This document shows, piece by piece, positions 6,642 through 10,051 of a stretch of 64,000 nt of DNA. The stretch is taken from contig JAHHIF010000007.1 of the NCBI GenBank assembly GCA_019358875.1, forward strand, positions 124,001 through 188,000. Reading direction: 5' to 3'. Position 1 is the stretch's first letter. Each line of letters opens with the position of its first letter. This stretch comes from Symplocastrum torsivum CPER-KK1 (lineage in GTDB: Bacteria > Cyanobacteriota > Cyanobacteriia > Cyanobacteriales > Coleofasciculaceae). The translations under genes were made by a program, and so were the position numbers. The notes beneath the pieces were generated by a model that saw only the letters and a list, made by a program, of their open reading frames with translations, did not search any database and was not told the origin of the DNA.

Positions 6642-6707
6642 CCCAATTCCCAATTCCCAATTCCCAATTCCCAATTCCCAATTCCCAATTCCCAATTCCC
6701 AATTCCC
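6642..6707. repeat. Heptanucleotide tandem repeat array (CCCAATT)n
   Basis: About nine and a half uninterrupted copies of the 7-bp unit CCCAATT fill the gap between rsmI and the lipoprotein gene. The array begins at the first base of the rsmI stop codon complement and ends 12 bp before the lipoprotein ATG. A second array of the same unit occurs at 49628-49702. Short tandem 7-bp repeats are typical of filamentous cyanobacteria. Confidence 0.95.
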
Positions 6708-7585
6708 TACTCCCCACTCTCATCTAAAGTATTCACTTCCGGTAGAGCCTGATCAGGAATCGCTAAAGCTAACTGATAGAGTTGACGCCGAGGAAGTTTG
6801 GTGAGTTGCGCTAACTGGCGCGATGCTTGCGATCTCGATACTCCTTGAGCAATTATCTGTTGCAACTCTGCTTTTAGAGCATCTTCTGATAGCACTGTTG
6901 TCACAACTTGAGCGCCCGTAACAACTAAAGTAAATTCTCCCTTGGGTTCACGCTGGGTATAGTGAGCGATCGCATCCTCAATTGTGCCTCGCCAGAACTC
7001 TTCATACAACTTCGTTAACTCTCGTGCCACAACGATCTGACGGTCTTTTCCCAAATGGTCTGCCAAATCTTGCAGACTCTTTCGTAAGCGATGAGGAGAT
7101 TCGTAAAAAACTAAAGTTCTAGATTCTGCTTCCAGAGATTCTAGACGTGTTCGCCGCTCTTGACCACTTGCAGGTAGAAAGCCTTCAAACACAAATCGGT
7201 CTGTTGGGAGTCCTGCGGCGCTGAGTGCGGTAATGGCAGCCGTAGCCCCAGGAATGGGTACAACTGTTATCCCGGCTTCATTACAAGCTTTAACTAACTC
7301 ATAGCCAGGGTCTGAGATTCCCGGTACTCCAGCATCCGTAACCAATGCGATCGCTTTTCCCTCATGCAGTTGACTGAGTAACTCTGGAAGACGTTGAACT
7401 CGATTGTGTTCGTGATAGCTCAACTGAGGTGTATGTATCTGAAAATGCTGCAATAGTTTTCCCGTATGGCGTGTATCTTCTGCTGCGATCGCATCTACCG
7501 ATTGCAAAATCCGTACCGCCCGAAAGGTCATATCTTCCAGGTTGCCAATCGGCGTTCCTACTACATAAAGCGTTCCTAGTTCCAT
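6707..7585 (-). CDS. rsmI: 16S rRNA (cytidine(1402)-2'-O)-methyltransferase RsmI
   Basis: A 292-residue SAM-dependent tetrapyrrole-methylase-fold enzyme that 2'-O-methylates C1402 in the decoding centre of 16S rRNA. Diagnostic motifs are [40 protein letters not shown] and [19 protein letters not shown]-terminal helix-turn-helix-like part ([20 protein letters not shown]) is usual for RsmI. The start is 5 bp downstream of the stop codon of the diguanylate cyclase gene, so the two are probably co-transcribed. The 3' end runs directly into the heptamer repeat. Confidence 0.95.
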
Positions 7586-7590
7586 GAAAA

Positions 7591-9027
7591 TTATGGCTGT
7601 TGTTCTTGTAGTTCCCGCTCATCTACTCGGTAGATATGTACTTGATTGCGCCCTTGCTTCTTTGCAGAGTAGCAAGCCGTATCTGCTGCGTTTAGAATAT
7701 TTTCTGGATTTAAACGGCAGTCGTTGATTGATACAAGCCCAATACTAATACCAAGGGTAAAGGTTTGGTCTTGCCACACAAATCGGAACTCTTGAATAGA
7801 CTTGTGCAGTTTCTGAACAACTCGTGTGGCTTCCTCTAAAGAACATTGATAAAGTAGCAACCCAAATTCATCACCGCCTAAGCGAGCTAAAGTATCCGAT
7901 TTGCGGCACCGATTTTGCAGTAAGGCGCTGATTTGGCGTAGCAGTTCATCACCAGCCAGATGACCACAGGTATCATTAACAATTTTGAAGTGGTCTAAGT
8001 CCATGTAACAAAGTGTGCATTCCTGATCGGAAGCCCTCGCCGTACTAACGACTCTCTCTAAGCACTTCTCAAATTCACGGCGATTCACTAAATCCGTGAG
8101 AGCATCGTGGCTTGCTTGCCAGGAGAGTTGCTCATTTACCTTTGTCAGTTCAGCCGTTCGCGCTCCCACCAGTTCTTCTAAGTGTTCTTGGTAGAGTCGT
8201 AGCGCTGTATCTGACTGCTTGCGCTCTGTGATATTTTCTACCATGGCAATGCAGAATTGGGGATTGTCTTCGGCATCACGCACCAAGGAAACAGTGAGAT
8301 GTCCCCACACCATCTGCTTCTGTTTGGTGATATAAATCTTTTCTAGCTGGTAGAAGTCGCGAAGACCCTCGACCATCTCTTGATAAAGCTCCGCTTCAGT
8401 TGAGATAAAGTCTGAATGAGTGAATTGTGTGAAATGCATCCTACTCAATTCGTTTTCGCTGTAGCCCAGCATCTTTTGGAAAGCTGGGTTTGCTGCCATA
8501 AGTTCTCCAGAAACGTCCGCAAGTACAATTCCAGTTGCCGCATCCTCAAAGATTAAACGAAAGCGAGTTTCGCTTTGTTTAAGTGCAGCTTCGGCTAAGA
8601 TGCGATCACCAATTTCCTGAGCGAGTTTTTGATTAGTTGCTTCTAATTGAGCAGGGCTAGGCAGCGCTAAAGCTTGAGGAATTAAGCCAAATAGTTCTAT
8701 AGCTGTGTACAAGGAAATTAACGCTGTAGTCAGCTTAATCCCTCCAGACAGCCAATAGTCCGGATGCCAGAGTGTCCAGACAGCCATCAGATGACTTGTT
8801 CCACAAGAAATGATGAACGCCCCAAACATTAGAAAGATTCCTTGAAAGGGCATATCCCGTCGCTTGTGGACGAAGTAGATTAGCATAATTGGAATTGAAA
8901 AATACGCTAACCCAATTAGTGAGTCTGACGCTACGTGTAACCAGACAAGTTCTGGCTTCCACAGGTAGCAGTGACCATGGGGGATGAAAGAGCTTGAGGA
9001 AAAGAAATTTTTTACAGGTTCCAGCAT
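7591..9027 (-). CDS. Ethylene-receptor-type sensor fused to PAS and GGDEF (diguanylate cyclase)
   Basis: A 478-residue membrane signalling protein that should make cyclic di-GMP. Residues 27-120 form three membrane helices like the ethylene-binding domain of plant ETR1: DSLIGLAYFSIP and FGAFIISCGTSHLMAVWT. Asp35, Tyr42, Ile45, Pro46, Cys75 and His79 match ETR1 Asp25, Tyr32, Ile35, Pro36, Cys65 and His69 at a constant offset of 10; the Cys and His bind Cu(I). A PAS domain with a PAC-like tail follows at about 150-275, then a coiled linker, then the GGDEF domain with an intact RLGGDEF (near residue 383). An RxxD product-inhibition site (RKSD) lies five residues before it. There is no EAL domain and no histidine kinase. 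It heads an operon with rsmI. Confidence 0.9.
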   Translation of the reverse strand: MLEPVKNFFSSSSFIPHGHCYLWKPELVWLHVASDSLIGLAYFSIPIMLIYFVHKRRDMPFQGIFLMFGAFIISCGTSHLMAVWTLWHPDYWLSGGIKLTTALISLYTAIELFGLIPQALALPSPAQLEATNQKLAQEIGDRILAEAALKQSETRFRLIFEDAATGIVLADVSGELMAANPAFQKMLGYSENELSRMHFTQFTHSDFISTEAELYQEMVEGLRDFYQLEKIYITKQKQMVWGHLTVSLVRDAEDNPQFCIAMVENITERKQSDTALRLYQEHLEELVGARTAELTKVNEQLSWQASHDALTDLVNRREFEKCLERVVSTARASDQECTLCYMDLDHFKIVNDTCGHLAGDELLRQISALLQNRCRKSDTLARLGGDEFGLLLYQCSLEEATRVVQKLHKSIQEFRFVWQDQTFTLGISIGLVSINDCRLNPENILNAADTACYSAKKQGRNQVHIYRVDERELQEQQP

Positions 9028-9175
9028 GAATCGCTACTGCTCCTTAAGAGCGGATAACAAACAATATGCCTAACGTGTCCATATTGTCTTCCCTCCAAGG
9101 GACAACACATGTTGAAGCAAAACCTGAAATTTAAACTCTACAATTTTGAGCGTCAGCCTGAACTGGAGAGAGTCG

Positions 9176-10051
9176 ATGGCAAGAAAGGGACTTTTTGTTG
9201 GAATGGTAACGTTAGATCTGGTTTATCTAACCGAAAAGCTTCCGGATAACAATCAAAAAACTGTTGCTTCTGACTACACTGTTACCGCTGGTGGACCAGC
9301 CACGAATGCAGCAGTAACGTTTAGTTACCTGGGTAATCAAACAACACTACTCGGTGTCGTTGGCACTCACCCAATCACCTACTTAATTCGAGGTGATTTA
9401 GAAAATTATGGAGTGACTGTTGCTGATCTTGCCCCTACTACTACTGAACCGCCACCTGTTTCTTCTATCATCGTTACCGAAACCACTGGCGATCGCGCCG
9501 TGATCTCAATCAATGCTACTAGGATACAAATTAGTGCTGAACAACTGCCTACAACTATTGGCTTAGATGTTGTCGATTTAGTGATGATTGATGGTCATCA
9601 AATGCTGGTTGGATTTGCGATCGCTCAAATCGCAAAAAATAATAATATTCCAATTGTCATTGATGGAGGTAGCTGGAAGCCTGGATTTGAAGAAATATTG
9701 CCATTTGTGGATTATGCAATTTGCTCGGCTAATTTCTATCCACCAGGTTGTACTACTTGTGAGGAAGTCATTGCTTATCTTGCTGCTATGGGGATTCCTC
9801 ACATTGCCATCACCCAAGGCGAAAAACCAATCCAATACCTTAGCGATGGTGTATCAGGTGAATTGCCAGTCCCCCAGATTAATGCCGTTGATACGATGGG
9901 GGCGGGTGACATCTTCCACGGTGCTTTCTGTCACTACATCCTAGAGCAAAACTTTACCGATGCCCTAAACGCTGCGACAAAAATTGCCTCTCGTTCTTGT
10001 GAATTCTTTGGGACTCGTCGCTGGATGGAAAACGATTCCAATCCTGGTTGA
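9176..10051 (+). CDS. PfkB-family carbohydrate kinase
   Basis: About 291 residues of ribokinase-like fold, phosphorylating a sugar or nucleoside with ATP. The N terminus has the substrate-binding GG motif (TAGGPATNAAVTFSYLG). The C terminus has the anion-hole and catalytic-base motif DTMGAGDIFHGAF. The frame can be opened at a TTG at 9146, but the ATG at 9176 has GGAGAGAG in front of it and matches the family start (MARKGLFVGMVTLDLV). It is divergent from the ethylene-type cyclase gene with about 150 bp between them. The substrate is not predictable from these motifs. Confidence 0.85.
   Translation: MARKGLFVGMVTLDLVYLTEKLPDNNQKTVASDYTVTAGGPATNAAVTFSYLGNQTTLLGVVGTHPITYLIRGDLENYGVTVADLAPTTTEPPPVSSIIVTETTGDRAVISINATRIQISAEQLPTTIGLDVVDLVMIDGHQMLVGFAIAQIAKNNNIPIVIDGGSWKPGFEEILPFVDYAICSANFYPPGCTTCEEVIAYLAAMGIPHIAITQGEKPIQYLSDGVSGELPVPQINAVDTMGAGDIFHGAFCHYILEQNFTDALNAATKIASRSCEFFGTRRWMENDSNPG

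Follow-up and report, generated by a model that had tools for sequence, protein, structure and literature searches.

A putative one-component ethylene receptor with a diguanylate cyclase output in the cyanobacterium Symplocastrum torsivum

Can an ethylene receptor set the synthesis of cyclic di-GMP (c-di-GMP) directly? The question is raised by a gene of Symplocastrum torsivum CPER-KK1 whose 478-residue product joins an ethylene-binding domain (EBD) of the ETR1 type to a PAS and a GGDEF domain. The gene lies in a stretch of 64,000 nucleotides, here called the window (contig JAHHIF010000007.1, positions 124,001 to 188,000, assembly GCA_019358875.1). Ethylene alters cyanobacterial motility and biofilm formation (PMC6682694), c-di-GMP is the standard switch for both, and a receptor carrying its own cyclase would be the shortest testable route from the one to the other. 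A direct ethylene-to-c-di-GMP switch, as an earlier note on this DNA had predicted, is the best reading of the sequence; on balance we favor the view that the window protein is a membrane-bound diguanylate cyclase of the one-component kind, gated by Cu(I)/ethylene, with a GGDEF-EAL receptor as its ancestor.

The plus strand of 7591-9027 is rich in stops, which places the reading frame on the minus strand, where it runs from an ATG at 9027 to a TAA at 7591 (Table 1). All three Pfam domains (ETR1_N, PAS and GGDEF) were found far over their cut-offs, ETR1_N with 143.9 bits against a curated cut-off of 27 (E 1.8e-42) and GGDEF, at residues 305-462, with 149.3 bits (E 1.1e-43). This bears out the presence of an ethylene-receptor-type domain on a GGDEF protein, and the resemblance, judged from sequence, is homology that goes beyond a chance motif match. 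No Pfam match to HisKA or HATPase was found in the 478-residue protein, which leaves GGDEF as its only output, and it has no C-terminal EAL domain, the frame ending 5 nt before rsmI.

The earlier note had listed six residues of the ETR1 copper/ethylene site at an offset of +10. All six are present and a seventh, I62, joins them, D25, Y32, I35, P36, I62, C65 and H69 of ETR1 corresponding to D35, Y42, I45, P46, I72, C75 and H79; the ETR1 numbering is presumed here and partly confirmed by PMC11819568. Mutation of C65 or D25 abolishes ethylene binding in AtETR1, and AzoEtr1 of Azospirillum brasilense, a functional ethylene receptor, carries D35, C75, H79 and K98 as the equivalents of ETR1 D25, C65, H69 and K91 (PMC11819568). 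The window protein shares with AzoEtr1 the EBD-PAS order and these four residues at identical numbers, its K98 being the counterpart of the ETR1 output residue K91, whereas the output of AzoEtr1 is a histidine kinase (PMC11819568). SynEtr1 (UirS, Slr1212) of Synechocystis, a receptor that influences phototaxis and biofilm formation (PMC6682694, PMC5812497), likewise differs from the window protein in its histidine kinase output to a response regulator, and also in its photoreceptor GAF domain.

The seven site residues and K98 are kept in the orthologues. All seven occur in 103 of 116 distinct EBDs collected and are a hallmark of the EBD family. Cyanobacterial EBDs bind ethylene (PMC6682694), and binding of copper and ethylene is predicted for the window EBD with good confidence. 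The site can also be lost, as in two EBD proteins with GGDEF-EAL outputs, L047 and L022, which lack C65 and/or H69. The former (G000 C6, 1693-5370) is a second EBD-like protein of the window genome, with GAF, PAS, GGDEF and EAL domains; its residues at the seven ETR1 sites are E, Y, I, S, T, G and R, the copper ligands being gone (C65G, H69R), and it may sense something other than ethylene. L022, from genome G026, resembles L047 and has lost H69 and other site residues.

The window protein was modeled by AlphaFold 2 (AF2) from an alignment that held 29 homologues (mean pLDDT 86.9, pTM 0.50). It has long N-terminal helices at residues 25-55, 62-87 and 91-120, helical stalks at 125-162 and 267-309, and PAS and GGDEF folds. 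The three long helices match the three expected transmembrane helices, of which simple hydropathy exceeds 1.6 for the first two only. A sequence search of the PDB gave no relative of the EBD. The closest solved structures are those of the PAS-GGDEF-EAL protein PA0861 (5xgb, 5xgd and 5xge), which is also closest by sequence, and the LOV-activated cyclase 8c05 is among the best structural matches. PA0861 (RbdA) and its relatives are thus the closest solved PAS-GGDEF proteins, although they have no EBD and carry a C-terminal EAL phosphodiesterase. In the mechanism that we propose, the three transmembrane helices would coordinate Cu(I) by way of C75 and H79, with D35 in a positioning role, and bind ethylene; the signal would pass from the EBD along the first stalk to the PAS domain and along the second to GGDEF, where it would alter the contact between two GGDEF domains and with it the amount of c-di-GMP made, with the RxxD motif giving product feedback. 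Such coupling of ethylene binding to the cyclase seems somewhat likelier than its absence.

A different reading of the same architecture is that the cyclase is constitutive or gated by PAS, with the EBD serving mainly as a membrane anchor and ethylene mattering little. PAS is indeed a second possible sensor, and L047 and L022 show that EBD-like domains without copper ligands persist on GGDEF-EAL proteins, the fold being kept without the site. Yet the window protein retains all seven residues, and its EBD is the most conserved part: compared with its closest relative (L011), identity is 82% in the EBD, 78% in GGDEF and 66% in linker plus PAS. We consider this explanation unlikely.

We compared the gene with its closest full-length relatives, which are those of a Coleofasciculus metagenome-assembled genome (MAG; L011/L060, 73% identity), Aphanothece sp. 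CMT-3BRIN-NPC111 (L061, ~62%) and genome G024 (L012/L041, 61%). Comparison with L011, at 73% identity, shows strong purifying selection on the frame (dN 0.17, with dS saturated at 2.3). Three of the four orthologues, the window gene included, lie between divergent pfkB and rsmI genes, and pfkB adjoins all four; the MAG copy keeps its pfkB neighbor, and its rsmI is on a different contig. L061 and L012/L041, which share the pfkB-rsmI locus and are 60-62% identical across EBD-PAS-GGDEF, run on into a C-terminal EAL domain, whereas the window gene and L011 end right after GGDEF. A tree built from 52 GGDEF rows places the window and L011 domains inside a clade of 20 (support 100/99) whose other members nearly all bear EAL; one further member, L038, has no EAL in frame, with an EAL frame adjacent to it. 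Because the syntenic orthologues are EBD-PAS-GGDEF-EAL proteins and GGDEF-EAL proteins surround the window domain in the tree, EAL appears to have been lost in the window form and the related MAG.

The simplest account is a loss of the EAL phosphodiesterase in the common ancestor of the window gene and L011, by which an EBD-PAS-GGDEF-EAL receptor would have been left with synthesis only. No EAL remnant was found 3' of the gene in the window or in the 1.1 kb downstream of the MAG copy. The EBD tree alone does not resolve the window clade (a tree with the clade intact is not rejected, p 0.41, and is not the best one), and the grouping rests on synteny. The statement of the earlier note that GGDEF stands in place of a histidine kinase holds as to the missing kinase domains, but a simple swap is not what the orthologues at the locus indicate. 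The EAL domains of L061 (5710-7998) and L159 (2069-4579) read TIAKFV where relatives have TIAEFV, a change that possibly weakens the phosphodiesterase in both. The orthologues with EAL, with altered EAL and without EAL form a natural set on how output changes after loss of an enzyme.

This descent raises the possibility that GGDEF became a relic after the loss of its EAL partner, binding GTP or c-di-GMP and no longer acting as a cyclase. In structure its nearest relatives are GGDEF-EAL hybrids, and it is from their clade that the domain derives. However, the GGDEF signature (384-388), the I-site RxxD as RKSD (375-378) and DLDHFKIVNDTCGHLAGD are all intact, so that the metal, substrate and I-site motifs are kept, in agreement with what had been noted from the sequence, and relaxed selection would not preserve 78% identity to L011 at low dN. 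A relic is therefore quite improbable, and the window GGDEF is predicted to be a probable cyclase.

That the domain senses another small Cu(I) ligand (another alkene or gas) is very improbable: members exist in a methylotroph and other Betaproteobacteria, and the copper-dependent MHYT domain, also fused to GGDEF-EAL, senses CO in CoxC (PMC11347149), but the site is residue for residue that of proven ethylene receptors, and EBDs of cyanobacteria do bind ethylene (PMC6682694).

Several points weigh against the ethylene-gated cyclase that we favor. The pTM of only 0.50 means that domain packing is not reliably predicted. A GGDEF domain that stems from a GGDEF-EAL tandem can act as a GTP-binding regulator and not as a cyclase, as has been discussed for proteins of the RbdA type. 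The true signal may be the one sensed by PAS, and, with 20 GGDEF matches in the genome, the protein may change total c-di-GMP only slightly or locally.

The closest mechanistic parallel to the window protein is found in the MHYT-domain proteins NbdA, MucR and CdgB, in which a copper-dependent membrane gas-sensor domain is wired to GGDEF-EAL (PMC11347149). MHYT has been proposed for diatomic gases, whereas the window protein has ETR1_N with three helices and no EAL. A review describes a wide range of outputs for bacterial EBD proteins, including types absent from plants, and does not name diguanylate cyclases in the text searched (PMC7700396). The full-text literature searched held no description of an EBD or ethylene receptor combined with GGDEF or c-di-GMP; some key subscription papers lie outside that coverage, and a prior report is possible.

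The earlier note had taken rsmI for an unexpected partner. This view did not survive comparison: pfkB and rsmI stand next to each other in divergent orientation, with no copy of the EBD-PAS-GGDEF gene, in G001, G006, G008, G013, G015, G022, G025, G032 and G036 (in G013 with ~55 bp between the frames), and because at least nine relatives have the two side by side without it, the EBD-PAS-GGDEF gene sits within an old gene pair. A functional partnership with rsmI, which is the same-strand neighbor 5 nt past the stop and lies outside the receptor itself, is not needed to explain the arrangement. A promoter scan for the EBD-PAS-GGDEF gene found no promoter.

A second EBD-GGDEF lineage, from another cyanobacterial family (f8), also adjoins the pfkB-rsmI pair in three genomes, in a tail-to-tail arrangement with pfkB. 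In G172 (L320, 5260-9076) an EBD-PAS-GAF-GGDEF gene lies tail to tail with pfkB; G135 (L321, 5877-8950) has EBD and GGDEF as two overlapping frames, and G441 (L324, 7819-10081) a shortened EBD-GGDEF frame. No other EBD locus among L001-L239 lies near pfkB or rsmI. A single origin of the window and f8 EBD-GGDEF clades was mildly rejected (AU test, p 0.024, with the groups named after the tree had been seen), and the GGDEF domains of the two lineages are far apart in the GGDEF tree. Two lineages at one locus are hard to put down to chance; an insertion hotspot, rearranged common descent or a functional link may account for them. The fuller proposal, that removal of the phosphodiesterase made a one-component receptor that sets c-di-GMP synthesis directly and that separate EBD-GGDEF lineages were drawn to pfkB-rsmI for a functional reason, is tentative and rather doubtful.

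Table 1. Features of the receptor gene and its neighbors (window coordinates)
Feature	Position	Strand	Evidence
EBD-PAS-GGDEF gene, 478 aa	7591..9027	minus	Frame and Pfam domains; start backed by AAGGAG
AAGGAG, likely ribosome-binding site	9040..9045	minus	12 nt 5' of ATG; by eye
ETR1_N ethylene-binding domain (EBD), aa 26-122	8662..8952	minus	Pfam PF25487, 143.9 bits; AF2 helices
Putative Cu(I)/ethylene site D35, Y42, I45, P46, I72, C75, H79	8791..8925	minus	Residue comparison with ETR1/AzoEtr1 (PMC11819568)
PAS domain, aa 155-268, flanked by helical stalks 125-162 and 267-309	8224..8565	minus	Pfam and AF2
GGDEF domain, aa 305-462	7642..8115	minus	Pfam; closest solved relative PA0861 (RbdA) PAS-GGDEF-EAL
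I-site RKSD (375-378) and GGDEF signature (384-388)	7864..7905	minus	Motif inspection
rsmI, 16S rRNA C1402 2'-O-methyltransferase	6707..7585	minus	TIGR00096, 317 bits; synteny
PfkB-family sugar kinase, divergent neighbor	9146..10051	plus	PF00294; synteny

The earlier note had also supposed that other EBD-GGDEF proteins exist, and the genome search found EBD-GGDEF and EBD-GGDEF-EAL proteins in several lineages. Matches in the window genome number nine for EBD and 20 for GGDEF, with about seven EAL regions, and EBDs occur in 87 of 386 cyanobacterial genomes drawn. From this list 104 EBD frames, the higher-scoring ones, were fetched; most resemble histidine kinases. EBD-GGDEF accounts for two and EBD-GGDEF-EAL for one, and in one more the EBD and GGDEF occupy neighboring frames that overlap. 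Eight further EBD frames have a co-directed GGDEF frame downstream. In the four of these that were checked (L179, L184, L197 and L231) the downstream gene encodes a REC-GGDEF or REC-GGDEF-EAL response regulator, which suggests that EBDs are also linked to c-di-GMP by a two-component pathway; the EBD receptor of L197 was confirmed as a histidine kinase.

In family f8, seven genomes have EBD-GGDEF fusions without EAL, to which split and shortened copies are to be added, and the four fusions checked by Pfam are PAS-GAF-GGDEF. GGDEF-EAL forms with EBD are also present in Nostocales, and EBD-PAS-GGDEF-EAL in the Betaproteobacteria Methylovorus, a Methylophilaceae MAG, Noviherbaspirillum and Paucimonas. 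A set of 80 loci ranked by similarity to the window protein was kept out of the frequency counts. Ethylene-type sensing is linked to c-di-GMP in several ways, of which the window protein is one, and because others exist it is a variant of a recurring type. In Methylophilus sp. Leaf416 (L134, 5980-8241), EBD-PAS and GGDEF-EAL form one frame broken by a stop codon at 7024-7026. A further non-kinase output is seen in G155 (L209, 3318-4556), where an EBD is joined to a SpoIIE-type phosphatase domain.
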